NCBI GenBank assembly: GCA_032622095.1
Contig: CP136064.1
Span: 127,521,605-127,585,604, forward strand
DNA: 64,000 nucleotides
Source of the DNA: Siphonodentalium dalli
Taxonomy: Eukaryota > Mollusca > Scaphopoda > Gadilida > Siphonodentaliidae
Direction of reading: 5' to 3'
How positions within the stretch are numbered: the first letter of the stretch is position 1; every line of letters starts with the position of its first letter. Shown piece after piece: positions 13,201 to 55,200 of this stretch. Below the pieces are notes generated by a model. That model was not told the origin of the DNA. It searched no databases and saw only the letters and a program-made list of their open reading frames with translations. The position numbers were made by a program, and so were the translations under genes.

Positions 13201-16200
13201 ATGGTAATGACGTTGTTGATAGAGCAGGACTGCGGCCATTTCGTAGCTTCTCCAGATTAGGAGAAGAGTTGCTCTCCGTGAGGGCCTTGAACAGATTTTT
13301 CTTCAATGAATCATCGCTTCCTGAAATGGCGTGTTGCGAAATGACCGGAGATTGTGATGCCGATCGTGGAGTGTCACTTGTGGAAGTGTTGACACTTGAA
13401 GTTCTAATTGGAATTATTTCTGTGGTTCCTGAAATATCACAGACGGATTCTTCATCTAACTTCTGGGTTTCTTTTCTGTATGATGTGTAGGTTGCCTGAA
13501 AGAGATTTGGAAATTTACCTTACATCATGCTTACAGAGCTGCATACTAATATGCCAAAGGCACATACCCTGAATCCATGATATAATAACATGAAAGTGTC
13601 AAGACTTGGAGAGTAGATAATGTCATACATTACAGTCAATGGAGTGATAAGGCATACAGAAAGTTGAAATGTTTAAGTAATACCAGAGGTCAACCAGAAG
13701 AGTCAAATGAAGTTTGGGATCAATTGGATGAAAAAAGTTGGCTGTAGGGCATACCAATTATTTAGTGTTGCAAGATTTAAATCCAAGATGGCAGGGCAGG
13801 GCAGCCAAATTTTTCATAAAAAATTGTTCAAATTCAATAGCTTTCATCCACAGGTGATCCTAATCACGTCTGTAAAATTTCAAAACATTCTCCAATAAAT
13901 GTGGGCTGCAGGTTAAGCCAATGAATTTAAAAGCAAAATCCAAGATGGCTGCTGGCATTTCTTTCTAAAAATAATTCATGGCTCCCATCCGGAGGTCATC
14001 TCAAAGATCAATATAAAGTTTTGTGAGGATCGGATGAGGGGCATTGCCGGTATGGTGTGCCAAAGGAAATTGTTGACAGATACAAGCTAAAAATGACAAA
14101 TATCTGTGGCCAAGTCAGCGTTAACCATTTCTTTACTTAATGGATTATCCCATTCGGTTTCAAAAGTATACATTCGAATGGTCTATTATTCATCTGGAGG
14201 GTTGTTCACTCGTCGAAGAGTATTTAGTAAAGAAAGGGCTGCAGACAGGTTAACATTAATGTATCGCAGGAGTTTGGTGTGATATAATAGTACTACAAAA
14301 AATGTAACTTTTGTTTGCACATCACGACATGACAAATTATTGAAATAATGTCAATCAGTCTGAACAACTCAGCTCTTCTACTTTTATATCATTGCCAACA
14401 ACTGCAGTTTGTAGAACAGCAAATATGACATCAATATTCCTTCATTTGAATAGCCCATCAAAATGCACAATCAGACAGGTGAAAACATTTCAAAACTCAT
14501 AACATTGTCATCATGAACATTATCTCCATAATAGGTCTGTTCTGCCAACATGCCTGCAAATAGTGCATCTGTCATTTGCAGAATGAGGTCCCCAGAAGGT
14601 GAATTTAGTGATGATAAACCCACACAGCAGGCTAGCATCATCAATTCACCCTCTGGGGACGACCTCATTCTGTTTAAGCCTCATCTTCTATGAAGTATCT
14701 ATAGTCTTAAATTAACATTGTTTTAGTTACTTTTTCCCTTTTGGGAAGTTTCTATATCCCCTAATTTGCAGAAGAAAAAATGCATAATCGAGGTGACTAA
14801 TGGGTGAACATCACCAACTTCAAACTGGGGAACTTCAATCTGATCATCGATCTCCATTAGCAGTTGAGGCCCAAGCCGAATGAGTTTCCAGAGGGTGAAT
14901 TTGGTGATGCTAGCCCGCTTAGCGGAATAGCATCACTAAATTCACCCTCTGGGAACCTCATTCTGCAAATGACCGACACACTATTTGCAGACTTGTCTGC
15001 TATTAACATAGCTCTATTATTGACCATGTTGACAAATTCTCTATTTTGCTTTGTTTCACAAAGTGTATTAACTAGAAAGGTAGAATATGAAGAAAGTATA
15101 TCACTTCAAATGAACAAATATAACGGGATTGGAGAACAAGTGCTGACAATCAGTAAGTGCTTCTCTTCCTATAATAACACTGCTAATAAAAGTATCTATC
15201 TACAAGACCCATACCTGAGCTTGTCTGATCTTCTCTACCCAACTTCGTATTCCACCCTGATCACCATGAAAAATGAAAGCTGTTGCTGGCACATGATATT
15301 CGTTCAGATATATCATTAAGAAAGACCCTGCAATTAGATACATGTATTTATTAAAGATCCAGAGGTGGAGCTGCGGCAAAAGGTAATGTGTGCTTGAATA
15401 GATCCCACAACCCAAATGTGGTTAAAATCTAATAACGTTTATTGGCGCTAGCATGCATACATCATTCTGTCTTCTGCAGCATTGTCAGATTTGCTTTCCT
15501 ATTATTTGGAATTGATTTAATGATAAATAGTCACATAAATGAAATGAGATTAAAATTTCAAAAATAATTCATCCACAAAAATAGTTTAGTTAAAAAATTG
15601 GAACAATCCAAAAAGCATGAAGGATCATACTGAGTTTAGCTGTTATCTCTTCAAAGATTTACTTATTATTATACTCAAACACCTCTTTTCGACCTGACCT
15701 GCACATGATATTCAGTCTTGGGTGTATTAATTCCACCTCTTTTCGACCTGACCTGCACATGATATTCAGTCTTGGGTGTATTAATTCCACCTCTTTTCGA
15801 CCTGACCTGCACATGATATTCAGTCTTGGGTGTATTAATTCCACCTCTTTTCGACCTGACCTGCACATGATATTCAGTCTTGTGTGTATTAATTCCACCT
15901 CTTTTCGACCTGACCTGCACATGATATTCAGTCTTGGGTGTATTAATTCCACCTCTTTTCGACCTGACCTGCACATGATATTCAGTCTTGAGTGTATTAA
16001 TTCCACCTCTTTTCGACCTGACCTGCACATGATATTCAGTCTTGGGTGTATTAATTCCACCTCTTTTCGACCTGACCTGCACATGATATTCAGTCTTGGG
16101 TGTATTAATTCCACCTCTTTTCGACCTGACCTGCACATGATATTCAGTCTTGTGTGTATTAATTCCACCTCTTTTCGACCTGACCTGCACATGATATTCA

Positions 16201-19200
16201 GTCTTGGGTGTATTAATTCCACCTCTTTTCGACCTGACCTGCAGATGATATTCAGTCTTGGGTGTATTAATTCCACCGATTTCGACCTGACCTGCACATG
16301 ATATTCAGTCTTGGGTGTATTAATTCCACCGATTTCGACCTGACCTGCACATGATATTCAGTCTTGGGTGTATTAATTCCACCTCTTTTCGACCTGACCT
16401 GCACATGATATTCAGTCTTGGGTGTATTAATTCCACCGATTTCGACCTGACCTGCACATGATATTCAGTCTTGGGTGTATTAATTCCACCGATTTTGATT
16501 AAAGATGAGACTACCTCATTAACATGGAGAATTATTAAGTTATTACCATACCTTTATCCTTGAGTTCATGCACGATGAGTCGGTCGACTCTCATTGGAGG
16601 TTTTATTATTTTGTACTTGAATCGTTTGCTTGTTTTGCATATAAGAAACAGATCTGTGAACAGGAAGCAATCCACATCACTCTGAAAGCAATATAAAAGC
16701 AATTGAGATTTTATAGCTAATGCCAACTTAATAAAAATATAATGTGTGTCAAGCACTCCCTCATCACTTAAACAGGGTTTCATAAAAAACTTGTTATTCG
16801 CAAATTTATCAAATATTTCTCCATATGTTCAAAGCTCAAAATATAGAGGAATAAAATGATGTCCAAGATGGCCACCATTTTTCAGAATGGGCATAATGCC
16901 CATTTCATCTCAGTTTTGGGTAGATAATATTGTGTGGAATGTATAAAAATATGATATTTTTAAGATGCTACAATATTATGGGATGGTACTGCTTGGACTG
17001 ACGGGGTGTGGGGTAAACAGGGAATTACTTTACACCGCGACATCAGATGAAACTCTTTACATTTCGTAATAAAGAACTTTGACAAAACAGACATCGCTAG
17101 GACTAGGTGAAAATAACAGACAATATGGTTTAATGAGCACCATGCTATTTTAACACAAATTAATTTTGTGAATAATACTTAAAAGACATACCTTCCCTGC
17201 TTGATTGCATTCCTTAAATTTGAGGCCAGAGTTGAAGATGAGAGTTCTGATCTGATCATCAGTACATCCTGGCATAGGAGCAGTCAGATCAAAATTTGAG
17301 TTATACTCTGCAATAATCTGAAAGTGAAAGGAAAATTTGCTAAACCATCCACATTTGTATCTAAATTTAGGAGGGCTAAATATATTTAGAGTTTACATCA
17401 TACTTTTTTTTAAATCTACATGATTCATGCCAACTGGTGTTTGAATATGATTTTATAGCATTTGTGTTAGTTACATTTAATGCAACCAAAATATTGATGA
17501 GAAAGGTATTGTTTGTTTTGCATGATACATGCACTGATGCATATACAGGAGAAAGTGTCGTGTAATATTTACCAGGGTTTTTTCCGCTGTGCGGTAGTAA
17601 AACGGACCCAGTTTTAGTGCCCAAAATATATAAACAGAATGCAAGTCAATATAATAAGTACAGGTCCGGGTTGTGTATTTATTTCTGATCACCGGTCACC
17701 AATGCCACAAACTGCAACAGATCATACATAAGATAGCAGCCATCTGTGTTTTACTGTTGACTATTAAAAATATTTATGAAACAAAGAGTCATTCCTTAAA
17801 ATGAGGGAACGAGGGTTGTCTTCTGTTCATAGATGATAAATTCAGTCAAATGTCTTAATATTAAGTATTAAGGGAAAGTGTTGTGATTTTCATGTTACGG
17901 TGATAATTTAATAGCCAAATACAAACACCCAGCACTATTCTCTGGTGCAAGGAAGTAAGGTTTTTTTTTGGACATGGCTCGAATATAATCAACCACTCTG
18001 GTGTAAGGAAATTTTGGACATGGAATTTAAAAATCTGCATACGATGGGCCAAAACCATGGCCCTATCTTAGATTCCACGGACAATACATTTTAACCCTAG
18101 CGGAAACCCTGCATTTAATAATCTTGAAGCCTGCTATTACCCGGACGCATTCTTCAGATGTGGACTCCACAGCTTCATATGGCTCTATCTTCGTCATCAG
18201 CGTTAACAATTTGTCTCGCTCATGCTGTCTTCTCATCAGGTTGTTGACATTTGCAACAGCTCTATCTACACAACTAATCTGAAAAAATATAGACAAATAA
18301 TGAACACTAGTATCTTTCTCACTACGGCCCTTAACCTCTTAACTTCCTCTGATGGATGACATCATGATATCATGTGCTGAAACGTTGATGCGCTAAGGGA
18401 ATTTTAGAGGAAAAATATCAGGGGATCGAATATCAGGAAAATCATAAATCTTACTTCATGTAAAGCCTGTTGCCATACAGTAATGCCCTAAATAATTGAC
18501 TCCTTAACCACAGAAGAATTATGGGTAATTTTTCAGGATTTAGTCGGAAATATGGCTTGTTGCCATTCATCGGAAAGCTCTCAGTGAGATCTTTCTGATG
18601 AATGGCCAGAAGCCATATTTCCGACTAAATCCTGAAAAATTACCCATAATTCTGCTTTGGTTAAGTAGTCAATTATTTAGGGCATTACTGTATATAAACA
18701 CTCCTAGAACACCATACACGGTTAACCTCTTCACTGCTAATGACGTTGTGATGTCGTGTGCTGGGCATTTGACGTTATGGTCATTTTCCAGTGGGAAAAT
18801 ATAATGGGAATATAATGAAAACCATAAAACTGACTCTATAGAATGGCTATCATCTTCACAATCGTGGAACATCATACAACTTTGAGATACAGTTGTTCTG
18901 ATGTACCAATCTCTGAGTTCCTGTTATGAACCATGGCCGAGTGTTAGTGCGCTGAAGTAGGTCCATACTCAGTACGGACGTATAGCCTACAGCGTGACAT
19001 GTTACGTCTGTACTCAGTTCCCTCTATGAATGATGGCTGTCTGCTGGATCGCTCAAATAGATCCGTACTTAGTACAGCACACAGCATGACATTTTACATA
19101 TGTATTCAGAATGGATGTAAATCACCCAAGAGGTTAACCAGGCCTCAGCTCACAAGGCGACTCGGGCGAGATTGTCGCCTTACTGTCGCTGACTTCGCCC

Positions 19201-22200
19201 TATTGTCGCTCTAAGGCGAAATCGAAGTCGCCTTCAATTTTAGGGGGATTTATTTTATTTTTTTTCTATTTTTTTTCTCGTTTTTTTTCCCGGACATGTC
19301 CGTATATAGATGAATTGTGGCGGCCATCCCAAAAAGACGATGCAGAGACAAAGACCCAAGCGTTTAAAATAAAAAATAAAATATGACCTTTTGCATGTTT
19401 TGTGTTGTTATTCAGTCGCCATTGTTCCCTTTGCGGTAATGAATGTTAATCACGAATGTTTTGACACGCTGAAAACACGATGAGATGTTCGCATCTGTGT
19501 TGTTACTGACCATCGTGAGTGTCACACATAAATGTTTTAATTAACTTAAAAGACCGCCGTCCCGCTTTTCAGATATAAAACAATTACAACATTATCAGAG
19601 TATGTACCAGACGCTTTGGAAGTTCGTTTCGGTAACGCGTCGGACTTTTTGAAGAGACCGCGTCAGACTTTTTGAAGAGACCACTTCCGTAAATAAATGC
19701 TTTAATCGGATTATACCAGTGATGTTGGCATTAATTAAGGAGGCCATTAATTAATAAAAGCTTTTGCAACTCCTTTGTTAGTTAGTCCTTATTGTTTATT
19801 TTAGCGGACGCCCACATTACAGCCGTGACCAAATTAAACTTACAAAGTTACATGCATCATGATTCAGACTGTACAAACGTATCTTCCAAGCTGCAGTCTA
19901 GGAAATAATACTACTTTCATTTAGTTAAAAAATTAACTACTAGTACTACTGTAACTTGATAATTGTCTTGCTTAAATGATAGCTACACAAAACATTTCCA
20001 AAATTTTTAAATGTATAATAACAATTAATTAGGCTAATTTCAGATAAAGTCAATTTTTTTTAGTTTTATTTCTTATTTTATCTTTTTAAAAAATTTATTT
20101 GTCAGATGTTATAAAACAAAGCGATATTTGAAAATTGTCAATTTTTGGTAGTCTCCCCACTTCTCCCTGAAGTCTCCCTAAATTTCCTGAAGTCTCCCTA
20201 AATTTCCTGGAGGGAGACTTCAAGTCTCCCTGTTCTGGACCCATAGGCTGAGGCCAACGACCACTAATATGTGGACCATAACAAAGGATATCATGATATG
20301 ACATGTCATGCTTCAGTTATTATCCTAAACATTCACAAAAACAATTTTAAATGTCGATCAAGGACCATAATTCTGGTAGCTAGCCGCGAAAGAAACCTGC
20401 AATATGTGGATGTCCTTTTCCCAATGCTACCTGTCACTATACCAAAGGACACTACTAGTATAACCCGACAAGCGATCCTTCAGTTAATGCAAAACTTTCA
20501 CATTAAAAGTCAAACGCGGATCATAACTCTGGTAGACAATGCTGGACAAAACTTGTGGTACAGTAATGCTCTAATTAATCGACTCCTTAACCACAGCAGA
20601 ATTATGGGTAACTTTTCAGGATTTAGTCGGAAATATGGCTTGTTGCCATTCATTGGAAAGCTCTCGCCCTTGTAAGTGCATATCATTTCCACGATGACTG
20701 TTGTCGAACCAAAAGAATATCAAACTTAACCTGAGTGTAATTCGTAATTCAAAATGTTTGTACAGACAACAGGACGGACATAGATCATGACTGTATACTC
20801 TGAATCTCAACGGATGTCAGATACATACTGAATTGAACTGCATTGGCTAAGGTTGTGATTCTGTCCCTTTAGGATCTGGGTATCAGTATCTTGGTGTTTG
20901 CGGCAAGCATTAAGACAGAACTTACCATTTCAAGGAGATCACGCCTGTCATGGTCGTTTTCTGTTTTCCGTAGTATTGCTTGTAATAAAAGGGAATATTT
21001 CGTCATCCGCTGCATTGGTTTGACTAGCAGATCTGTAAGTTTGAGCCGTCTACACTTAGTCTGTTTCTCTGCCCACTGAAATTAAAATATGACCATTTTA
21101 TTGTAAAGACATCAATTAAGTTTATTCAGATCTGTAGCAGGTAACCAGTTTCTGAATTGATGTACATGTATAGAACCAAGTAAGTGGTATTTTCTTAGTT
21201 AGTTGACATCCCAGATTAATTCACCATTGAGACCCATTATTTTGATCTCAAAACACCTAAAATATGCTATAGGGCCTAAATATCTTGATGATTAAAAAAC
21301 CTATGTTCACATCAACATGTTGTATGCATGTCCTGTCTCATTGACAAGCTTTTTACCGAGTTTGCAGGCACAATGCAACACATGTTGAACAAATGCTTAA
21401 CCCTTTCAGTGCCAAGTCCGATTTTTGTAACCCATATTTCCTTGATCATTTTTCAAATTTATTGATTATAATAATGTGACACATTGATGGAAAGAGCTCT
21501 AACAAGAGCTTTCCGATGAATGGCAACAAGCCATATTTCCGACTAAATCCTAAAAAATTACCCATAATTCTGCTGTGGTTAAGGAGTTGATTACTTATAA
21601 CATTACTGTACATATATGACAAGCACTCTAGTTTTGATTAATCTCTAGATTAATCTCTAGGGCCTTCTTATTTAAACATACCTCGATGAAAGTCTTGAAT
21701 AACTCATTTTCATTGTTTTGATGCTTCGTGTACTCCAGACAAGCCCGCTGCTCCAGGCAGTATGTGGTGTACGGACTGAAACTTTCCTGAAACTGCATAG
21801 AAAAGAAGGCAATTTTAAGAAAGGCACAACAGCAAATAACATCATTGTTTATTTTATCAAAGCTTTATACTGTCATATTATGGACTTATTTTAACGTATG
21901 AGCTTAACAAATTTGTGATTTACTTAACGATTCAATTACAGCTCTATGTATTAAATTCAGATTTAAGAAAAATCTTAGTTGTCACCTAATTCAGACTTGT
22001 GAATGGTATCCCTTTGAAATTCAACAGCACTTATAGTTCAGGAAAGGAGGACTAGATTTCTATCGTAGTTATAGGACAAGGTGGCAAAACAAATCTGTTG
22101 AATTTCTAACCTGGAGGAACTATGATTTCAGAATGGGAAAATTTATCAACTCAGAGCACCTTAACACTTTCAGTGCAAAGTCCGATTTTTGTATCAACCC

Positions 22201-25200
22201 ATATTTCTCTAAGAGCTCTTTCCATCAATGTATCACATTATTATAATCAATAAATTTGAAAAATGATCAAGGAAATATGGGTTGATACAAAAATCGGACT
22301 TGGCACTGAAAGGGTTAATATAAATGTTAGGTGCAAATTAAAACTTGATTTAATTAATGTATGGTTTAACCCCTTCTTTACTAAATGGAATCTCCAATTC
22401 AGTAAAATAGTGTACATCTATTATTCATCTGGGGGGTGTTCAGGAAATATAAGCTGCTGATAGCCAGGCGAATAGATAATACAAGTGCAGAAGAATTCCT
22501 ATTCATATGGTCATTTGTTGAACTTATTATCTGAACATTTTTTAAGGAAACTACTTGTCAATGAGTATTTAGTAATGAAAGGATGCGTGTACTCACTTTT
22601 CTAAAAACACCTGTCATGTAACTGGGTTTGAGTGGTTTATGGACTCACATTTCTAAATGCACATGTCTTGTAACTGGGTTTGAGTGGTTTATGGACTCAC
22701 ATTTCTAAATGCACCTGTCATGTAACTGGGTTTAAGTGGTTTATGTACTCACTTTTCTAAAAGCACCTGTCATATAACTGGGTTTGAGTGGTTTATGGAC
22801 TCGCATTTCTAAATGCACCTATCATGTAACTGGGTTTGAGTGGTTTATGGACTCACATTTCTAAATGCACCTGTCATGTAACTGGGTTTGAGTGGTTTAT
22901 GGACTCACATTTCTAAATGCACCTGTCATGTAACTGGGTTTGAGTGGTTTATGTACTCACTTTTCTAAATGCATCTGTCATGTAACTGGGTTTGAGTGGT
23001 TTATGAGATTCCCTCGATGACTTGAGAGTGTCGACCAAACCATCAGACCAGAACTGACAATTAACAGCCACCACATCCTCTATGTTACTGAACAGTTTCT
23101 CCGTTTCAATCTGAAATAACAACATAAATCATAAGAGCATGATGACCGAATGTAATGCCATTTTTGTGCCCGGGCTTGTAAGTGATATTGGTTTTTTTTT
23201 ATGTTTTCACAAATGAAGGAATGGGGTTGTTATAGGGAATCCTAAGTTTCCGTGCAGTTATGTTATCAAAGCACCCCTCTAAATGATGAATACAGTAATG
23301 CCCTAAATCATTGACTCCATAATGATAGCAGAATTATGGGTAACTTTTCAGGATTTAGTCGGAAATTTGGCTTGTTGGCATTCATCAGAAAACTCTCACT
23401 GAGAGCTTTGTGATGAATGGCAACAAGCCATATTTCTGACTAAATCCTGAAAAGTTACCCATAATTCTGCTGTCATTAAGGAGTCGAATATTTAGGGCAT
23501 TACTGTAATTGACTATTCAAAGTATATGTTTATAATTGAATGGGAAAATCTATTCAGTGATGAAAGAGTTAACATCCATACAGGTTTTCTTATTAGTGTG
23601 CAAAGAGTATTTTATTTCTGTATGAAAATATAGTAATTTTCTTGTGTACCATTCAGGTATTCAGTATTCACTAATATATTGTTGGTTTCCTCAATTTGAA
23701 TTACAATCAAATTGCTGATGATTGTATTACTATAACGTTTAATTAATATAGTTTGTATATAATAGCATACGATTAATCTTACCTCACAGAGAATGGACTC
23801 CCGTTGAAGGTCATGGAGGACGCGCATGAAGAGCTGCAGAAAACAGAACACTAATGGTTAAGCTTCATAATCTCAAGAGGCCATGTATTAAATTTATTTA
23901 TACCAAATTGCCTATGCTATTGTGTGTATAACACCTATTTTGCAAATTTCATCTTTACACCCCACTGTGGATATAAATTTCTACTTTGGGTGTCAATTTT
24001 CAAATACCATTTAATGGGTTAAATCTTTACACCCATAGTAGAACTACATCATAGTTAGTAAAATAGTTCTTCCATTACATTCATTTAAAATTGTATGTTG
24101 TTATATCAATTAAATACCAGGAGCATTGCCTGTATTTCAATCAAACATAGCTTGCTAGTGTTATATTAATTATAGGAAATGTACAAATGAAAATACCAAG
24201 TGAATGATGGCTTAGAAACTGGTCAACATCATGACATAAAAGTATGCATCCCTATGTGTGACGCAGATTCCTTATAGCATCGTGTTTATGTCTCTCAGTG
24301 AAGATATAAATTAAAAGAAACAGCGGATTAGTTAAATTCGCAGAATAAATACAAAATAAAAATTATGGCATAATACATCTATAGTAGGTGAGAGTAACAA
24401 ATTTCACCACGTTGTAATGTGATTCTCGCCAAAAGTATCTCAGTTAAAACCACAATTCCACTCGTGTTGAATTTTTTTTTTACTCTCGGCTACTATATTT
24501 ACATTCTAGTTTATGAAAAAATTCTTGACATTTAAAAAAAATGCAGATTTCATTTTCACAACATTATCCAAATAATATCATGTCATCAGGTGTCGAAAAA
24601 ACATGGTTAATGACAAAAAAAAATGATATGCAGAATGTCATCAAAACAGTGACAAGAATAGAACAAACTAGAGATTTCTAAGTCGAAACAGGGGGATAAC
24701 TCCACCAAAAAGAATTGGAGGACAGATGTCATAATGCACAGGTTCCCATGGTACTAAATACTAAAAATTACGCATGTTGAGAAAAAGTAAAAAAATTAAA
24801 TAAAAAGGGGGATTAAAATAAAAAAAAGTCAGATTGAGCTAATAATTGAGACGAAACAGTCGACTGAAAAATGTAGGAATACAATCCTGGACAAAGTTGT
24901 GTCCATCAGATGGATGGACAAGCTGATTCCTATATACCCCCATAACTTTGTTACAGATGGTATAAAACCAGAATAGAAGTGGAAGATTGACAGACACAAC
25001 CATCACTATATAAACCACAGGTCTATCTAACTTTGTTACATCTCAAGCAACAATTACTGATAAATAACTGAATAGACAAAAACTATTTCCTAGATAAAAC
25101 TATTTCAATTAAGGGAGCGTCTCAAAAGTCTTTGCGGAATTCCGAAAGTATTTTCCGAAAACAAATGACGTTATGAACACTTTGCGGAAAACTGTTTGCG

Positions 25201-40200: not shown

Positions 40201-43200
40201 ATAACTCCAATGACAAAAAATAGTAGTGAAATTAATAATGGCACCACAACGGTATAATCAACTGCAAAATATACCACAATTAGAGCAAAAGTTGACACTC
40301 AAATAGGGTTGTCTAGGGTTGGGTGACATATGCTGTCAGCCATAAAGAAATGTACCACAATGAAAAGGCAATTTATAAAAAATTAACAGTCCTTTGTTTC
40401 GACTACATTAATGCGTAATATCACATAATGTATATAATAGGTTTATTATGAACCACTATATTATATGTCCTCAGGTGGAAATTATACTCCTTGTTTCATA
40501 CTTTACTATATAGCCGATCTATAGGATATTAAAATTTGAAAGGCGGTCGGTGATTCCAGGTATGCAGATATTATAGGTAGGCTTAAGAATTGTTCAACCA
40601 TTTTTGGTAATCTGCCAGTGCACAGTACAAAGTTTCCAATGAGTTTTTGTTCACAATTGTCGGATACGCATGGGAAATATTCATGTAATTTGAGTTGAAT
40701 TCTATGATAGATTTATATATGTGAACATGCACTGAACTGGAGTATGGCCACTAGCGAATTCTTCCCATCAGTCAAAGTTTTGAGGTGCATTAAAAACTCA
40801 TGTAAAACACAAACCATTAAGCAGTTAATACATCTAATCATGACATAACACGGATTGTAGAGACACACTAATTTGTTGGTTGTAATACTTTTCTATCATT
40901 TACACTTCATATTAATTGGATGGAAATGTACAGATTTCAACACCCTGCCATTTGTTGAACTTATTATCTGAACATTTCTGAGGGGAACTGCTCGTCAATG
41001 AGTCTTAAGTCAAGAAAGGGTTAAGGGCGCACTTTGTGTTCAGAATTGTGTGAACTTTACCATTTACTATAATTGAGTGGAAAAAAACCAATGAGCACAA
41101 TTGTGACACCAGGTACAGATATGCCCCAAGTAATCGACTCCTTAAACACAGCAGAATTATGGGTAACTTTTCAGGATTTAGTCGGAAATATGGCTTGTTG
41201 CCATTCATCGGAGAGCTTTCCAATGAATGGCAACAAGCCATATTTCCGACTAAATCCTGAAAAGTTACCCATAATTCTGCTGTGTTTAAGGAGTCGATTA
41301 CTTTGGGCATTACTGTATTGACACCAGGCTTTTATATACAATGTTTATGAAAATGTTCAGAAATAAGTCCTCTTTTTAACATGTCTAAAGAACTGTTTCT
41401 GCTCCATTAATATAGGAAATCTATAGGAAAAGTCTTTGTAAGCATTTACTATTAATTCATTAGACACAAGATATCAATCCCCCCATGACTGGAGCTTCCT
41501 AAAATTAATTTTGCGAAAAACCCTGTGCCAATGCATTCTCTTACATATGCGAGTCCCCATAGGGAGCCTCACATATATAATGGCCTACCAATATTTACCT
41601 TGATTTGTTAAGCCAGTACATTCTCTTATATATGCAAGGCTCTCCCTATGGGAGACTTGTATATATGCGAGAATGCATTGGCACAGGATCTTTAATGCTG
41701 CACCAGTGCAGCTCCCGCCATGAAAGGGTTAATGATATATATACAGTAATGCCCTAAGTAATCGACCCATTAACAACAGCAGAATTATGGGTAACGTTTC
41801 AGGATTTAGTCGGAAATATGGCTTGTTGCCATTCATCGGAAAGCTCTCGGGGAGAGCTTTCTGATGAATGGCAACAAGCCATATTTCCGACTAAATCCTG
41901 AAAAGTTACCCATAATTCTGCTGTGGTTAAGAAGTCGGTTACTTAGTGCATTACTGTATATATAAGACTATTTTTCTAAGCTGACTCAGCAGGGAAATAT
42001 TTCCTTTGTTTTCAATATTTTCCTTCACCTTAAAAATATTTCATTATAGAGTGGTAAATATTTAGAAACGGAAGCTAAAAGTAAATTATCAAATGTTATC
42101 GCAAGACATTTAAGTTTTCTTCAACAAAGAGCTCACACTCTATGAACTTGTTCACAGTCTTGCGAAGAGAGAATATTATGGACAATGAATAAAGATTACA
42201 GGAAAACTTATTGACTCAAGAGATTAGAATACAAGAGGTTTTACGTAATCTTCCGAATGACATTGTGTGCACCATCCAGCTAATATTTGCCAATACACAA
42301 TAAGACACCATATGATGAGACAGGAATTCAATGCTGAGATCTACACCTGCGAGCAAAGATCTGTGTTGACCCCAAGTTCACATTTGGCTTCTGTAGTCCT
42401 CAATGACACAATATCACATTCTTATCATTTTTTGGTAAAAAAAAAACAAAAAAAACAACCCAATCTGAATAAAGGCAAATATAGATGCTCCTAGTTTTAT
42501 GTGGTATCTGTTTTTAACCTATTAATCCAATCTATACTGAATGGATTTTCCCATCCAGTTATAAAAGTATACATTGGAATTGTCTATTATTCATCTGGAG
42601 GGGTTTTCAGGAAAAATAAGCAGCCAATGAGAAATTCTCTGATAATAAGTTCAACAAACGGCATTGTTGAGTTTATTATCTGAACATTTCCTATGGGAGG
42701 ATAACTACTAATCTATGATTATTTAGTATAGAGAGGGCTAAAGCCAGTTAGTATGGTGCTTTTAACTTTCACTCCACAGGTCTTGTTAAAATATCCAAGT
42801 AGACATTTTTCACATGAAGACAATCGAGGAAACAGAAAAAAGTTTATAAAAGTCGAAAATAAACCATATAATAGTCAGGTGAAGTAAAAAACAAGGGTTG
42901 CACCTGGTTGCGCATCAAAGATGGATTGGTAAAGTTTTTTTTGCCCATAAGAGTGGATCTGTCTGAAAGAGAATCACTAAAAATGGATGAATTATTAAAA
43001 GAACCATAACTCAGAAATAAGGGCCATAACTCAGGTAAAAACAAGATAATAGCCAGCGGCCATGTTTTTCATCGAAACCAATCAGATTTGATAGTTCCTA
43101 GGTGATAGAGCCCGAAGCCGCCATCGTACGCCGCCGCCGCCAGCCATATTGGCTACAAGCCGCCGCCAGCCATATTATTTCTAACGCCAGCCACATTTAA

Positions 43201-46200
43201 AAATCTCCGCCGCCGGAATTGTAAAATGGCTGAGCCGTGTGCATGGGCTTATATGTCAAGCACAACTGTTCTGTGAATCGCAAAGAACTAAACCGCATTG
43301 CCTAATATTGGTATACTCGCATGGACATAGCATGGTTGTTATATTATCAGAACACATGGCTCCTTAATGTGGAATAGACTATCCCAATGCATGCTTTCAT
43401 ATAACTGAATGGGCGCATCCATTCGGTATTGAAAGGGTTAAAATATAAATTGTTTATATCGACAACACCCAGTCTAAGACATCACTGGCATTTGTCAATA
43501 TATACACATAAGAATAGAAAATAGTTTGAAATATTATATATCATTACTATCGGGTTCATCATTCAATGATGCATGCATATATCGCAAGATGGCAGTGGTG
43601 ATAGCAGTCAGAAGTCCCAATGTAACTACTTATACCGATTAGATAGTAGGCCTATATCCATGCCAATCCTTCGTGAATTTTCGCCATAATGGAAAAGCCC
43701 AACATCAAAAGATTACGTGTGGTCTCGAATTATACGGGTTCACCACAAACGCTAAAAAAACGGCGTCTATAACCGGTAACAGGGGATTAGGAACATTTCG
43801 GAAACGAAAATACGCTGAATGATAACATCTCAGCCGGCTGAGCCGCCATATTTCGTCAGCCACGAACGTCGTGACTGAGCCGGCTTAGCTAGTTAACCAG
43901 CCACGAAAATCGGTTGAGCCAGCCATGAAAACTATTTGTCGTGGCTTCGGGGTCTACTAGGTGATGTGATCCTAAACAAGCCTGTAAAGTTTCAAAAACA
44001 ATTCTCCAATATATGTGGGCTGCAGGGTGTACCACGTGCTGATGGATTTGTAATTGAAATCCAAGATGGCTGCTGGCAGCTATGTTTTCTTAAACAAATC
44101 GGGAAAAAGGGAGGCTCCCATCTAGAGGTCACCCGAAGAGCCATATGAATTTTGATGATGATTGGATGAGAAATGTGACCTTTAAGGTGTGCCAAAGGAT
44201 TTAGTCATAAAAAGAATAAAGTCCTAGATGCATGGCCACTGACAGCCATGTTTTTAACAGAATACAGAAAAAATAGAAAGCACCCATCTAGAGGTCACCC
44301 CGAGGATCCATATGAAGTGTGGTGATGATCAGATGAGGGATATGCTCTGTAGGGTGTGCTAAAGGATTTAGTGCAAAGAGTTAAATCCAAGATGGCTGCC
44401 GATCGCCATGTATTTCATTGAAAATCATTCAAATTTGATAGCTCCCATCTAGAGATGATCCTAAAAGTGGTCTGTAGGGTGTGCCAAAGGATTTAGTGAT
44501 GCAAAGAGTAAAATCCAAGATGGCTGCAAGCAGCCATGTTTTTCATTGAAAATCGGTCAAATTTGACAGCTCCCATCTAGAGGTGATCCTAGATCCATAT
44601 ACCGAATATCGTTGAAATCCGTCGAAGTTTGTATGAGTTAGTGAACGACCAAAACCACTAAAAATAGTCAAACTAAGGCCCATAATGCTCGTATGAAATA
44701 TTGGACAAACCTGGTTTTCGAAATCGAGCTAGATATTGTTGCAACAGACCCATATACCAAATATCAATTAAATTGGTTGATGTTTGTTTGAGTTATCGCA
44801 TTTATAACGGTCTCGCATCCATCTGGAATGCCGGCTCCCTCGGACGCCCGCCTGCCTACCGACCTCGCCAAAGCATAAGTCGAGTTTTTGAAAAAACTTG
44901 ACTAAAAACAGACTGATACCATAATCAAAGTCTCATGAAATCCCACCCATTAAGTTTGTATATTCCATGAATTAATAATATAATATAATATACGTACTAA
45001 ACTTCCTTGCTAATAAAAGTCTATCATGTTTTAAAGTTTATTTTAAAAACTTGATAGATTTATGACTGCATTTAGAGAGACAGAATTCTCACAAAGTCAC
45101 ATGTCCCAGACCTTATTTACCACAATTGGATTGTCAAGGCTTATTTAGTATAGGTCAATAGTTGGCCTGAATAGGTCAAACTATGACCCGATTCTTTGAA
45201 AAGATATACGCTTAATGTTGGGAAATAATTACCGAAGATTACTTAATTGTCGTAATAAATCATACAGCGTTTTGTCGTGTTTTATGGCACATGACTCTAA
45301 CCTCTATCGGAAAGGAAATCAATCGTTTGAAGCCAGAAGAGTATTGTTCGATAAAGAATATAAGGTTTATGATTCATGTTACCCTTTAAAGTGATAGACC
45401 CAGTTTCATTGTTAGGCTGGTTGATTGTAGTATTATAAACCTTTAGTAAACAGCTTTACAAATGTATCTATGTCAGTAGATCTTTTCATGGTCATACGAC
45501 AACAAATTTATTTAACAAAAGTAATATTATTCTGACATACAGTAATGCCCTACATAATCGACTCCTTAACCACAGCAGAATTATGGGTAACTTTTCAGGA
45601 TTTAGTCGGAAATATGGCTTGTTGCCATTCATTGGAAAGCTCTCAGTGAGAGCGTTCCGATGAATGGCAACAAGCCATATTTCCGACTAAATCCTGAAAA
45701 GTTACCCATAATTCTGCTGTGGTTAAAGAGTCGATTATTTAGGGCATTACTGTTTAATTTTTCTCCATTTCAAATCCAGCAGCTCAGAGAAATCAGAAAT
45801 GATGTTCAGTTTAATCCAAATGCAAATCAGTGGCATCAGTTCTTTCAATTTTCCAGATGTGATGGACTGGGGTTACTGTAAGGAAATATTGTCCAAAACA
45901 ATAAAAGGCCGCAGGTCCCCCGAATAAGGTGGCATTATTTGACAGGTGACAATTTTTTAAATAAAATTTTTATTCTGGTAACAAAACTTTGCTTCCAACT
46001 TTCTATATTGTTAATGCTGATTATGCACCTAGTTTATTTAATTGCACAGATTAATCTATGAAGTTATTAAAACCAAAATAATCAACAAGGGTCATAACTG
46101 TGTTAAAAATGAGTGGACCAGACAGGAATTCAAAATTTACCTGTATTTTCATGTAAGTAATCCATATAACAAATTTGAAAACAAACAGATAACTAAAACT

Positions 46201-49200
46201 AAAGTTATCATCTGCAAACCAAAATAATCGGCAAATTCTAAATAGAAAAGACATCTGGTAAAAATGGGCGGACCAAAACCCAAAATCGAACTTGATCTGT
46301 GCCCTTTATAACAAATAAGTTCACATACACCAAATATTATTTAATTTCATTAATTATTACTGAAGATATCATCCACTATCATCTGGAATGGATGGACCAG
46401 TGATTTCTATGGTGATTAGAATTTATTTCGGAGGACAACATATGATAAACCAAGTCCTGGTTGCTCAATATATACATTATATAGTAATAAAGAGTGTTTT
46501 TTGTTAATATTTCGGACCTTTGTTCTCCTGAAGTGTGTATAAACTAGACAAAAGATTATAGGCCACTTTTAATTTATGTCTTCTTAAATCAAACCTAGTA
46601 TTTCCTGGCATGGTTACTATTGACATGACAATTTAAACACGGAGTGTAAAATATGATTGTTTGGTTTTAATACACCGAAACACGCAGCTAAGATATTTTG
46701 TGTCATATGAATTATTTACCTTGTGATTCCGAAATTTGAAGCTATTCTGATTGAAACCTTTTCTGTTTTCCACTGTCATGTTGTCGCAAACTTATGTCCA
46801 TACAAGATAATTATTAACAGAAAGAAATCCCAGATAATATAGTCCCTTTTGCACTTTCAGAGTGCATGCGCTACCTGCTGGGAATTAATGAATCATTTAT
46901 GTGCACGTTTATACCAGAACACGAAGATAATACATCCTTGTCAGTCATTAACTGCAGTGGCTTTTCAAGTTTATTGCGGAGGACTGTTTGCTTGAGACTG
47001 TACATGGATGACTTGACTTATGACGGAAACAAGCCATCAGTCTATATTGACTGCCTATGAATAGTATACCACTTAATAAGTGACATGCCCAACAGCATTC
47101 TTAATCTGAAGAAAATCCACTATGTAAAGACCATTTAAACTATACACTATTAGGGAGCGAGTTGTTATTGTTAGTGAATGGTAGCTAAGAATTATATCTA
47201 AATTGTATTGCACTAATGTGCCAAGGACAATATAGGATATGCATCAAATATTAAAACAAATTTTATTCTTGATAGCACATGGATACCCAAATATGAGTTA
47301 AGATTTTTCTAATAAGAACATGTAAACATGTTGTTTACAAATATTAGAAGAAATTAAGCGTAAATTATCACAATTAGGAGTGACAATATAGGGATGATTT
47401 GAATGATATAATTGAAGTCACATGCTGGTTTTAAACATTTGTTCATGATTAAATTTTATCTTGGGTCCAATTTAAATATGAATTCAAATATAATTATTTG
47501 TAGATTTGGGTTTAGATATCAATTAAATAGCTAGATTATTATGAAACTAAAGAGAACAATCGGTGTTTCAGCAGACTATTATGAAACTAAAAAGTACAAT
47601 CGGTGTTTCAGCAGACTATTATGAAACTAAAGAGAACAATCGGTGTTTCAGCAGATTATTATGAAACTAAAGAGAACAATTGGTGTTTCAGCAGATTATT
47701 ATGAAACTAAAGAGAACAATCGGTGTTTCAGCAGATTATTATGAAACTAAAGAGAACAATCGGTGTTTCAGCAGACTATTATGAAACTAAAGAGAACAAT
47801 CGGTGTTTCAGCAGACTATTATGAAACTAAAGAGAACAATCGGTGTTTCAGCAGACTATTATGAAACTAAAGAGAACAATCGGTGTTTCAGCAGATTATT
47901 ATGAAACTAAAGAGAACAATCGGTGTTTCAGCAGATTATTATGAAACTAAAGAGAACAATCGGTGTTTCATCAGATTATTATGAAACTAAAGAGAACAAT
48001 CGGTGTTTCAGCAGATTATTATGAAACTAAAGAGAACAATCGGTGTTTCAGCAGACTATTATGAAACTAAAGAGAACAATCGGTGTTTCAGCAGACTATT
48101 ATGAAACTAAAGAGAACAATCGGTGTTTCAGCAGACTATTATGAAACTAAAGAGAACAATCGGTGTTTCAGCAGACTATTATGAAACTAAAGAGAACAAT
48201 CGGTGTTTCAGCAGATTATTATGAAACTAAAAAGTACAATCGGTGTTTCAGCAGACTATTATGAAACTAAAGAGAACAATCGGTGTTTCAGCAGATTATT
48301 ATGAAACTAAAGAGAACAATCGGTGTTTCAGCAGACTATTATGAAACTAAAGAGAACAATCGGTGTTTCAGCAGACTATTATGAAACTAAAGAGAACAAT
48401 CGGTGTTTCAGCAGACTATTATGAAACTAAAGAGAACAATCGGTGTTTCAGCAGATTATTATGAAACTAAAGAGAACAATCGGTGTTTCAGCAGACTATT
48501 ATGAAACTAAAGAGAACAATCGGTGTTTCAGCAGACTATTATGAAACTAAAGAGAACAATCGGTGTTTCAGCAGACTATTATGAAACTAAAGAGAACAAT
48601 CGGTGTTTCAGCAGACTATTATGAAACTAAAGAGAACAATCGGTGTTTCAGCAGACTATTATGAAACTAAAGAGAACAATCGGTGTTTCAGCAGACTATT
48701 ATGAAACTAAAGAGAACAATCGGTGTTTCAGCAGACTATTATGAAACTAAAGAGAACAATCGGTGTTTCAGCAGATTATTATGAAACTAAAAAGTACAAT
48801 CGGTGTTTCAGCAGACTATTATGAAACTAAAGAGAACAATCGGTGTTTCAGCAGACTATTATGAAACTAAAGAGAACAATCGGTGTTTCAGCAGACTATT
48901 ATGAAACTAAAAAGTACAATCGGTGTTTCAGCAGACTATTATGAAACTAAAGAGAACAATCGGTGTTTCAGCAGACTATTATGAAACTAAAGAGAACAAT
49001 CGGTGTTTCAGCAGACTATTATGAAACTAAAGAGAACAATCGGTGTTTCAGCAGATTATTATGAAACTAAAAAGTACAATCGGTGTTTCAGCAGACTATT
49101 ATGAAACTAAAGAGAACAATCGGTGTTTCAGCAGATTATTATGAAACTAAAGAGAACAATCGGTGTTTCAGCAGATTATTATGAAACTAAAGAGAACAAT

Positions 49201-52200
49201 CGGTGTTTCAGCAGATTATTATAAAACTATTTTAAAAGAGAGCAATCAGTGTTTCAGCAGATTCCCCAAGACACTTTTATAGATGAGACAATGAAAAACA
49301 TCAATACAAAGACGGAGAATGAACTACTACACATGTGGGTGAATTTTGAAAGAAGCGCAGATCAAAATTTAGGATACAGCGAGAAAGAAACCGCGTATCT
49401 CAAAGTATTGTAAATTATAAATAAAATTTTTAAAGAGATATATTGACAACAATGGTTGTAACTTCTATAGTCAAATGTTTTGTTATTCTATTACCCTGAT
49501 AACAAAGTTTGAGTATTTAGTGATATTCAGTATCTATTTATTGCCTATTGTCAGGGTTTCCACTATTCGGATGATTGAGTTGTTCAACTGCAAACCGTAT
49601 CAAAGGTCAAGGTTGGCGATTATCGCAATACGATAGGGGAACACTCCGACGTTCATATTCAGATCATCATTTTTGTAACTCGCTGAAGTTTCATGGGAAA
49701 ATAGCTGTTTTAAATTTATTTGTCATTCCATATATATTTATCACCCCATTTATTATTCCTTTTCATGAAAATAAAATAAAACAAGTTCTTATGCATGAAA
49801 TTGGCGATAACATTGTCCCCAGAGTACATTGTACTTGTGATAGTTACGTTACACACATGGTATTCCCCTATTGCGATAATCGCCAACTGAAAAGGGTATC
49901 GGAATGCGAACCAGATATTCGTACGGCCTGTTTTTCGTACTGATATTCTGAAGCATAGTTGATAACTAAGAGCTCAGCCCCCTCACTATGCTGGTTTGAC
50001 TGCTGCCATCACATGCATTTTCATAATTAAATCTAAAAAAAATTATTTAAGTGTTTTGTCAGTTTCAATTCATTCTGGCTTGATCTAGCAATTTACAAAT
50101 GAATATCATTAGACAGTTTCTCAGAATAACACAGAATGAATTTTAACCAACAAAAATTGAAACATATAGTGATTTCTTCCATATTCTGTGTATGTGATGG
50201 CAGTGATCAGGCCAGCATCGCAGGGGACTGAACTCTGCCTTGCAATTTGAGTTGGTACATGTAGCCATGCATGGGGGTAGGAAATATCTGTATTCAACTG
50301 AAACTTCAACATATCATGAGTCGTGACGTCATGGGCCTGGAACCGAGTGCGTGGAAGTTTGCTAAGGTCTGTTTGGGCTACATGGGGGTAGGAAATATCC
50401 GTATTCAACTGAAACTTCAACATATCATGAGTCGTGATGTCATGGGAACCGAGTGCGTGGAAGTGATGATTGATTTGTCTTTGACTTATGCCGATATATA
50501 AAGCGTTATGATAGAGGACTGTGTCATTGTCAGGGAAGGGAATGAGGCTGCTGGACAGCCGGCCTCTCATAGTAGCAGAAACCCTGCTTTTGTTGCAAAA
50601 TAACTGGAGAAAGCCCTGCCTACACACAAAAAATTTACTGAAACCTCAAAATAAACATTAATTCTTCATTCCAGGTCTTTCGGATTGAAAATTTACACAT
50701 GGCATAAAGTCAGGCCTATATATATGAACTTATTTTCTCAAGCTTGATCTCACCTTTAACCTGTACATTTTTGTTGTCCAGCTAATTAAGTCTATCTCTC
50801 CAGCAAAAAAACAAATCCAGAATACGCCAGAGTCTTGAGTCCTTTTCAAATATTCATAACAATTAAATTATCTCTATCTATTTTCCACTGAAATGATTCT
50901 TGTGTCCTAGCTTTGGGCTAAAGTTCATTTCAATATCCTGATATTCCAAAGCTAAGTGACAATGAATAACTAATGTTACATACATAAAACATAAAAGCTT
51001 TCACTCAAGTATTCCAAGAACATATGTCCTAAATACTCATCATAAAAAGAAATGTGAAATTTCTCTCAAGTATTCCTAGTTTTTGTCCAGATCATCGAAT
51101 ATTCAACATAAAACCAAATGTGAATATTGTTTCAAGTACTCTGATTAATGTCCGAAATACTTAAAATGAACTGCAACAGTCAGGAAAATCGAACATATAA
51201 AGCTGTGAAAGCTTTCATTGTTACAAAGGGAATAATCAATGGCCCAGAGAATTATGCAGACATAGTCCAAATCCCCATAAAATTAATCTGCATTGAGGAT
51301 TTGCTCTAGACATTCTGAGCTCTCTAGGGAGATTTTGTTATTAATTATAGCCTCCCAGATTTACCAGTTATGGGCTGGATGATTTTATTGATCCCAGATC
51401 ATTTTCTTACTTGACTTTACAGTGATTAATTAAGGTGTGACATGTGGCCAAGGTGTTAATGGCTTCTACATATCGATCAAAACTCATTTTTCACTGGAAC
51501 ATCTGAGATATTGCAATAGAATGGTAAATTTTTTATAATCATGAAAGGTATTCCGATTGGGCAGATTTTATGGCAGATCAATATATGTTGTATCATGGCT
51601 GATGACTGGGTTTGAGAATTAAAGGTGTTTTAACTCCCTCCATGCCATAAATTATATTTCAAGTTTAAAACGACATATAAAAGAATATAATCTTTATGCC
51701 TCAAAGTAAACTAGTAACTGCTTTCTTGTGATCAAATCAGGTTGATACATATATATTATATTCATTTCAAACTTTATATGTTGTAAAACCACTTCTTCAA
51801 ATGATAAGAAACTGTCACATCAAGCCAGTGTCTAGTGAAGCAAATAAATTATTACTAGTGATGGGATGTTTTGAAATTTTGACTCGGTTTTGTTTTTGAC
51901 TAAAAGAGTTGACTCGGTTTTCATTTTGGTTTTTGTCATGGATTGCATATATGTGTTGAGAGGAAAGCTGAATGTGCCAAGATTCGGTTGGTATTAATCA
52001 AGTAAGAAGACATTTGTGCCGAGATCAAGGGGGTCGTGTGATGATGAATATAATTGGGCCGATTCACAATTTCCCACTCATGTGTGATATTGCCACTGAG
52101 TATAAAGTAGTTCAAGATATTTTGTTAAGTATTATGTGAATTTTGAACTACTGAGTCAGCTGATAGCTACTGGCACAACAAGACTCAAGAGTACAGTAAC

Positions 52201-55200
52201 AACACGAACTTGTCGGGATTCAGGAAGCATAAAAAGACATGTTTCTGTGACATAATTAGGTCAGTGAGGCATCTTCACCTCGGTAATAGACTATATACCC
52301 GCCCTTGGTCTCTCTACGTTATCAGAACTCTTTAAGAGCCAGGGCCCCTCCCCTGGTGCATACCCCAGGGTAAAAAAAATGGGGGGTGGAGGTCGGTACA
52401 TGGGGGTAAATGCTGGTGTAAACATATTTATTTCCGAATGGAATAGAATTTAACATAAGTTCAGGCATACATAGATTGGTTCATGTTTGCTGGTTTGGTT
52501 AAACTGTTAATAGGGAGTCTCTCATCGAGGCATGTATAATAGCAAACAGGGATTTTTTGGCGACCTGTTCATTCGACTGTTGAAAAAGAACAAAAACATT
52601 TGCTTATGATAATGATAACAACAAGATAGCTGATAGACCAAGTCTTTTGATCACAACATCTTGAGATATTGGTTGGGATGATGCTGTTTTTTGGACTGAG
52701 TCCCATCTCGTTACTCTTCTATAATGGACATTACGCCCAGAATCATGGGCGGGAGTTATCTTGCTTGTGTGTCTTCGGATTAGGTCAAATGGAAGCTTTG
52801 CTTATATGAACAGAGGGCAGCCTTCCCAAGCATGATGATATCAAACATGCATCTATCAGAGGTCCGTTAGATATCAAAGCAACAAGATACAGTAATGCTC
52901 TAAATAATCGACTCCTTAACCACAGCAGAATTATGGGTAACTTTTCAGGATTTAGTCGGAAATATGGCTTGTTGCCATTCATCAGTAAGCTCTCCCCGAG
53001 AGCTTTCCGATGAATGGCAACAAGCCATATTTCCGACTAAATCCTGAAAAGTTACCCATAATTCTGCTGTGGTTAAGGAGTCCATTACTTAGGGCATAAC
53101 TGTATATAAGTAAACAAAGTATTGTTTTCCAGAGAATTTCTATGTTTCCCATTATCAGAAAATGCATGTAAAAAATACAGTAAACAATTGAATCTTCACT
53201 ATTCCTTTTTATATCACGGTAATTATCATTTTGAAGACAGATAATTGCGGACATGTCAGATTAATCACATTCAGAGGTTTAGGGGTCATCTCAAAACTCT
53301 AATCGGTACCGATTGACATTTACCGATTGTAATCAAGCCTTTTGAATCGGAAACAATCGGTAAGTCGGATAGCGTAGTTACGTTTAGAGCGTCATGAACG
53401 GAAAAATCGGTACCGATTCTACCGATCAATGCACAAGACATCAAAAGAGGGAACGCCACAGTCGGTAAGACAATCGGTGAAATCGGTACCGATTGAGACG
53501 TTTAACGTTCGATTTCTGTTACATGAAAGAGTGAACGCCGCAGTCGGTAAGACAATCGGTGAAATCGGTACTGATTGAGACGTTTTACATTGTATCGTCG
53601 TTGTATGAAAGCAACACGCATCTGTCGTTGTTAACCCCAGAACAGAGATCATCGGGGATTCCCCCCGGAAAAAATCCTATGACCCCTACACATTTACGAT
53701 AATGGGACAATCCTGGATCAACTCTGTGCACTACTTTTACTTTGCACGCGCTTAAATTAAAAAAATTTAAATGCACGTCTTATATGAGATATAAAAGTGA
53801 CCATTATAAAATCCGCACACTGTGTGAATAATATTTTATTCAAAATACAAATGGATTAATGTTAAATCTACGCTAAACAGTACTTTTTCGGCACTATTTT
53901 GACCAATTCTCTCGTATTCCTCCGCACACATTTTCGGAAGTTTGTTTTGCGTGCATACTGTCATTTTTGAAGTCAATGTGACGTTTTCGAAGCATTATCA
54001 ACTTAATCAAGGTGAATCGACACACATCAAACAAAATTATTATTTATATTTTATTTTTTACAAAGACAAAAAGCCGTTCTGTCCTTTTGTTTTCAATTAT
54101 AAATAGTAATCTAACAGACACTCGAAAGCATGTGTTTGTCAAAAAGTAAACAGATTCGAGGTACCTGGCACATGCAGTGAGCCGACGATTTGCAGTATGT
54201 TTTCATATACTTATTCAATCGGTAATTTTGTTTCTAAGCATCGTGTAAATGGAATAGAGATGGGCGGTTAACCGTGGAATCAGTTCGGTTTCGGTTGTCG
54301 GGAAAAACAGGAAATGACAACCGTGGTAAGTTGGAAAAACCCGTAGTTTCGGTTGTCACAACTTCCTGTAATCATGGCAGAACACGACGAACAAACGAGT
54401 CCTGTGTGGAAATATTTTTCAAAGAAAGATAAGAAATCTAAGTGTGCCGCCTGTAATATATGCAGAAAGGAGTTCGCATGGTGAAATCGCGCGACGAATT
54501 AATTACGTTGCTTCCGTGTACACCTATTTTCGCCATAGTAAACACAACATGTTATTTTAAGCATTAAGGCCGTACAAATACTCTGAAAGGTGAATTTGAT
54601 AACGAGGATACGATATGAAAAGGTATCAATGATTGTTACCCCGCATTCCCTATTAGTTTTTATCACTGTTTAGATGTTAAATCGTCAAATATATTTGTGC
54701 GCCGTTGATTAAAAATGTTATGCCGGAATCGGAGCCGGAATGAATTATAACGTTTGTCGGTAAACTGTTGAGAAATAGCACTCATTCAGGTGACTTGTAT
54801 TGGATGCATGTATACTGTATAGTGTGTACAATATTATGTTCCCTAAATATGGTAATAGGCATATAGCCAGATAATGTGATTGAGAGATTCTAGTCATGTT
54901 TTATTTTCATTTTGTTGTTTATTTCAAATTTTATTTTTCAAATCATAACTATACACATATATCTAGTCACACACATTAGTTTTATGCCAATATAAATGAT
55001 CATTATATTATTTCACACTTATGATCATATGATGCTGAATTGCAGTCATATACAATACACAGACTCACTTGCATTCTAGCACTGCCACTCGACATGGACA
55101 TTAACAATACACATGTAATAGTAACAATATGATACATAATTTAATATTATAAAAGGACATGTACCTCACAAGTTATGGTGATACAATTGGTGTGTTTTCT

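Follow-up and report, generated by a model that had tools for sequence, protein, structure and literature searches.

The window that we have analyzed, a stretch of 64,000 nucleotides from the scaphopod Siphonodentalium dalli, carries a minus-strand gene for which a chain of nine exons, running from 23833 to 12570, can be assembled using AG...GT sites with matching phases. The joined reading frame has 631 residues and is open throughout. The search for exons covered the gene from 23833 onward. In the first 334 residues, the Pfam RhoGEF family (PF00621) is matched in one stretch, at residues 9-166, with an E-value of 2.5e-34 and 119.4 bits against a cut-off of 27.6 bits. The PH_5 match after the DH domain is weak in the same residues, with 20.2 bits, and lies under its cut-off of 30. 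The best relatives of the protein in the PDB are the Rho guanine nucleotide exchange factors 12, 11 and 1. A search of the assembly with 323 residues gives nine matches, seven of which are exons of the host gene and two of which are weak matches on contig C1 (46% and 38% identity). We see no recent paralogue in this search, and a second gene copy is rejected because, besides the gene's own exons, there are just these two C1 matches. A scan with NCBIfam, a library for prokaryotes, gives no match.

Exon b of this gene lies within the DH domain (Table 1). It is directly preceded by TTATTTCAG and directly followed by GTGAGT, with a coding end that reads ...AFRK and the donor at 22960, and the next coding exon, exon c, starts in phase 0 with the residues FQESFSPY. 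A tandem array crosses the boundary of exon b with its intron. TRF calls it at 22591-23005 with period 52, 8.0 copies, 93% matches and 0% indels, and an in-register cut of the minus strand, from 23005 down to 22590, yields eight 52-mers without indels. Unit 1 consists of the last 45 nt of exon b followed by GTGAGTA. Thus, the original prediction of an exon/intron boundary of a RhoGEF DH exon, tandemly amplified into eight donor units, is borne out by the Pfam match, the TRF call and the register cut. The unit was rightly described as 52 bp of exon end plus donor, but it divides into 45 exon and 7 intron bases instead of 46 and 6. Similarly, the interval 22591-23110 that had been given does hold the array, but the array itself is 22590-23005 and the remainder is unrepeated exon.

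Table 1. Positions of the array, its donors and neighboring features in the window
Feature	Position	Strand	Details or basis
Array, eight 52-bp units (45 exon bases + GTGAGT or GCGAGT + A or C)	22590..23005	-	TRF, register cut, unit comparison
Exon b, within DH domain	22961..23110	-	150 nt, phase 0 in and 0 out; last 45 nt in unit 1
Exon c, next coding exon, in frame with donor 1	21682..21792	-	Joined gene model
Donor 1, GTGAGT, sole frame-keeping donor	22955..22960	-	Gene model, unit comparison
Donor 2, GTGAGT	22903..22908	-	Unit comparison
Donor 3, GTGAGT	22851..22856	-	Unit comparison
Donor 4, altered to GCGAGT	22799..22804	-	Unit comparison
Donor 5, GTGAGT	22747..22752	-	Unit comparison
Donor 6, GTGAGT	22695..22700	-	Unit comparison
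Donor 7, GTGAGT	22643..22648	-	Unit comparison
Donor 8, GTGAGT	22591..22596	-	Unit comparison
TAA stop reached by exons ending at donors 2-8	22949..22951	-	Counted from 22960
Dispersed repeat (MITE-like by our own reading), adjoins distal end of array	22366..22582	.	Assembly matches

The units are 88.5-100% identical in pairs, with a mean difference of 6.7%, and they fall into two types. Units 1, 5 and 8 are of type A, with the junction AAA^GTGAGTA (the caret marks the exon end), and units 2, 3, 4, 6 and 7 are of type B, with the junction AAT^G(T/C)GAGTC. The splice signal is a GT donor in seven units and a GC donor in one; this is the GCGAGT of unit 4, the single altered donor that had been predicted. 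Private changes are present in unit 8 and likewise in units 4, 5 and 7. The codon GAT (Asp) is found in unit 1 alone, its place being taken in units 2-8 by GGT in six and TGT in one. This change creates a second possible donor in units 2-6 and 8, CAG^GTG (TAG^GTG in unit 4), which unit 1 does not have. From the unit sequences, the bases CA can be read as common to both ends of the duplicated segment.

The dispersed repeat at the distal end of the array has many copies in the assembly and is itself arrayed at loci L002 and L007, in units of about 66-68 bp. In a search that skips very common words, the sole match of the 52-bp array in the assembly is itself, and on this ground we reject a mobile-element origin of the array. 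Other repeats are found in the window. Within the host gene, a 54-bp x 15 array at 15680-16490 begins 62 bp past the exon g donor. The unit of this array has the 13-base word GAATATCATGTGC in common with exon h (15301), the exon that follows, though this may be a coincidence. TRF also reports a 40-bp x 42 array with 97% matches at 47533-49229, and a short repeat with a translation like LNHSRIMGNFSGFSRKYGLLPFI recurs several times, for example at 41054-41257, 45439-45660 and 52810-53010. No telomere repeat is seen in the inspected parts of six contig ends.

The choice of donor decides whether the DH domain is kept. Only donor 1, joined in frame to exon c, gives intact DH sequence. Exons that end at donors 2-8 would be 202-514 nt long, and every one of them reads ...AFRK-VST-stop inside the DH domain, so the truncation by downstream donors that the original prediction foresaw is what the reading frame gives. 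We compared the donors by a rough position score, based on human donor frequencies, and by pairing with the 5' end of U1. The score is 9.0 for donors 1, 5 and 8, 8.8 for donors 2, 3, 6 and 7, and 1.8 for donor 4, and the eight other donors of the host gene score 4.8-10.3. The weakest in the gene is that of exon e, CGG^GTAATA at 18141 (4.8), and this exon end may be misplaced. The U1 pairing is -7.1 for donors 1, 5 and 8, -5.5 for donors 2, 3, 6 and 7, and -1.8 for donor 4. Donor 1 thus outpairs its next three donors (-5.5, -5.5 and -1.8). The internal CAG^GTG sites pair at -7.2 to -7.3, with a lower rough score of 5.1-5.5. Strength alone does not secure donor 1, since donors 5 and 8 are its equals, donors 2, 3, 6 and 7 are near-equal by score, and the internal sites pair slightly better with U1. 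The 528-nt exon plus array has no unusual RNA fold (z +1.08; 88 of 100 shuffles are at least as good), so the idea that RNA structure hides donors 2-8 is unsupported.

To place the array in its genomic setting, we examined 100 domain-exon loci of the same genome from three domain families. Sixty loci have flanks of 1.5 kb (30 of 33 RhoGEF matches and 30 of 33 TBC matches) and 40 have flanks of 350 bp (40 of 63 UCH matches); one of them, L021, is another exon of the host gene. Arrays were called with TRF at a period of at least 20, at least 1.8 copies and a score of at least 100. The counts that follow come from a sample picked by match strength and partly by hand, with control exon ends placed by eye, and its points are not independent, as some are neighbors or near copies (e.g., L050/L051, L053/L072, L057/L067, L064/L065 and L028/L032). 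Arrays lie over 9 of 200 match edges. Inside the matches, the counts are 8 per 200 points at 15 bp, 4 per 200 at 30 bp and 3 per 178 at 60 bp. Outside, the counts at 15, 30, 60, 100, 200, 300 and 345 bp are 10, 12, 14, 13, 12, 15 and 13 per 200, and those at 500, 700, 900, 1100 and 1300 bp are 9, 12, 13, 7 and 10 per 120. Base coverage by arrays follows the same course: it is 1.6% deep inside the matches, rises to 3.3% over the 40 bp just within their edges and to 5.3% over the 40 bp just beyond them, and reaches 6.6-9.2% farther out. Tandem arrays are therefore common in the introns of this genome and scarcer inside exons, and they cross exon edges at or slightly below the intron rate. A preference of arrays for splice junctions is rejected, as the count at the edges is not above that of the intron. 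Set against the 12-15 per 200 at 60-345 bp outside and the 4 per 200 at 30 bp inside, the count at the edges is what one would expect if arrays can persist as far as the junction but are eliminated within exons.

Nine arrays that repeat a splice junction are found in 8 of the 100 loci, as read by eye and by word-match counts; six are on the acceptor side and three on the donor side (Table 2). The eight loci probably represent six genes, because L030 and L039 are neighbors on contig C8 and L090 and L100 are 17 kb apart on contig C5. These nine arrays and the nine covered edges are not the same set: L056 has a covered left edge (50 bp, 2 copies) that is not classed as a junction array, and the acceptor array of L030 lies inside its match and so outside the covered edges. 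Multiplication of donors had been considered unusual for a conserved gene; given this frequency of junction arrays, it is not so in this genome.

Table 2. Junction-repeating arrays in the sample of 100 domain-exon loci
Locus	Side	Copies and spacing	Spacings not a multiple of three
L030	Acceptor	2 copies, 71 bp	1/1
L035 (marginal: unit has only about 3 exon bases)	Acceptor	5 word matches; nearest three 55 and 62 bp apart	4/4
L056	Acceptor	32 copies, 47 bp, reaching end of fetched stretch	31/31
L090	Acceptor	12 copies, 28 or 31 bp	11/11
L100	Acceptor	6 copies, 54-63 bp	1/5
L108	Acceptor	2 word matches 102 bp apart; TRF 2.6 copies	0/1
L030	Donor	2 word matches 34 bp apart; TRF 2.6 copies	1/1
L039	Donor	2 adjacent copies 50 bp apart and 3 farther	3/4
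L058	Donor	9 copies, mostly about 100 bp apart	6/8

The copies of L100 contain in-frame stops, and a stop is also met past the first donor of L039 and of L058. Loss of frame is not universal among the junction arrays, since the next acceptor copy of L108, 102 bp off, keeps the frame, meets no stop and could lengthen the protein by 34 residues. Copies far from the exon have lost conserved codons in both L030 and L108. The distal acceptor copy of L030 has Trp and His for the two Arg of the exon copy, and AAAG for ACAG, and the copies of L108 appear to become worse with increasing distance from the exon.

We suggest that the array in exon b began when a short segment, reaching 45 bp into the exon and 7 bp into the intron, was duplicated in tandem, and that slippage or unequal exchange later expanded it. 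The extra copies would have come to lie on the intron side, so that the ancestral exon end and donor, those of unit 1, would remain intact. Exon definition would mostly pick the exon-proximal donor of the 150-nt exon, and units 2-8 would act as intron. Where donors 2-8 are used, the TAA just behind donor 1 would be met and the transcript would be expected to undergo nonsense-mediated decay. The cost of the array would then be at most some output, and a regulatory role is not required. More generally, a duplication that crosses a junction may spare the exon-side donor or acceptor, and stray use of the copies may mostly be silenced by a stop.

Hence we consider it likely that the array is a tolerated minisatellite of the kind called a mirage in amphioxus, with the exon-proximal donor mostly used and stray use leading to nonsense-mediated decay, and the normal splicing of the host gene is probably mostly undisturbed. 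We favor this reading since donor 1 alone gives an intact DH domain and outpairs the three donors that follow it, since junction arrays recur in the sampled loci, and since the far copies of L030 and L108 have lost conserved codons. It also agrees with the amphioxus mirages, which are reported without disturbance of splicing (PMC3087553, PMC3902484).

Alternatively, splicing could be leaky and dose-dependent, such that donors 2-8 take a noticeable share and the unit number tunes the amount of functional RhoGEF mRNA without any regulated switch. The equal or near-equal strength of several donors, the six extra CAG^GTG or TAG^GTG sites and the truncation in every exon that ends at donors 2-8 all fit with this, as does human CBS, where more units are reported with lower activity (PMC5188458). 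However, the amphioxus mirages for which there are RNA data are reported to splice normally (PMC3087553, PMC3902484), and we regard leaky splicing as unlikely. The original prediction went further and proposed a splicing buffer or switch for RhoGEF activity, here taken as one maintained by selection. A poison-exon switch would indeed require an identical early stop behind all downstream donors, which is present, and GTGAGT is retained in six of the seven extra donors. Nevertheless, among units 2-8 one of the six hexamer columns is variable, compared with 9 of the 46 remaining columns, and with too few columns to discriminate, this conservation is no better than expected of recent copies. In addition, the exon-plus-array RNA lacks a special fold and like arrays exist at other, unrelated exons. 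With no sign of regulation in the sequence and normal splicing reported for amphioxus mirages, the proposal of a switch is not upheld and appears very improbable to us. An assembly error that inflated the unit number has the slimmest chance. One amphioxus mirage is reported to have been misassembled in a draft genome (PMC3087553), but here the units differ from each other by private changes and the many arrays of varied unit length in this assembly are unlike one error, though the exact unit count may still be off.

Taken singly, the host array is ordinary. Together with the nine others, it forms a set of natural constructs in which one splice site is present in 2 to 32 copies in a row, most of them with built-in frame or stop reporters. 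They could tell which site the spliceosome prefers, be it the one nearest the exon, the strongest or the one transcribed first, and what amount of leak genes can bear. We see about even chances for the broader proposition that several per cent of the exons of this animal bear splice-junction minisatellites, at acceptor as well as donor ends and with up to 32 or more near-identical acceptors in a row, and that splicing uses almost only the exon-proximal site. If true, the genome as a whole would serve as a natural test of the way in which exon definition chooses one site among many alike, and mirages would follow generally from a heavy load of minisatellites, not from a peculiarity of lancelets. 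In the literature searched, we met with no whole-genome tally of junction arrays comparable to the present sample, which is not proof of absence.

The host array belongs to an already published class of exon-boundary minisatellites. Its closest counterparts are the amphioxus mirages, described in Adh3 with units of 10-72 bp and in the globins BflGb6 (150-160 bp) and BflGb9, where the BflGb6 mirage has 6 and 3 units in two haplotypes and the data are said to suggest normal splicing (PMC3087553). Further examples are reported in troponin C and PGBD5 (PMC3902484). As described, these mirages and the host array are both minisatellite-like repeats that span the border between an exon and its intron, and many of their units carry splice signals. 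Like the junction arrays of this genome, the mirages are found on either side of exons. The 52-bp unit falls within the range given for Adh3 and is shorter than that of the globin. Edge units are stated to escape homogenization in amphioxus. In humans, the designation of the 31-bp VNTR of CBS, c.1444_1467+7(16_21), implies 16-21 repeats of 24 exon plus 7 intron bases (PMC2630376), and its unit is therefore built like ours (45 + 7) from the last exon bases and the first intron bases. A review describes this stretch as non-coding and places it where exon 13 meets intron 13 (PMC5188458). The CBS repeat is polymorphic in people. Human duplicated genes are also reported to have variable minisatellites at exon-intron boundaries, with 27 intron modifications (PMC2812944). 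They share with the host array the tandem repeats at these boundaries, but that report concerns RNAs with new introns or retained repeats in recent paralogues, whereas ours concerns a single gene and is drawn from DNA alone. It has been proposed that nonsense-mediated decay shelters new introns (PMC2809761). In potato RdRp, an intron is reported to have been gained by tandem duplication over an intron-exon boundary (PMC4974935). There, as in the host array, a junction-crossing duplication took splicing signals along; in potato a new intron arose, whereas in the host gene the copies lie in an old intron and donors alone were multiplied.
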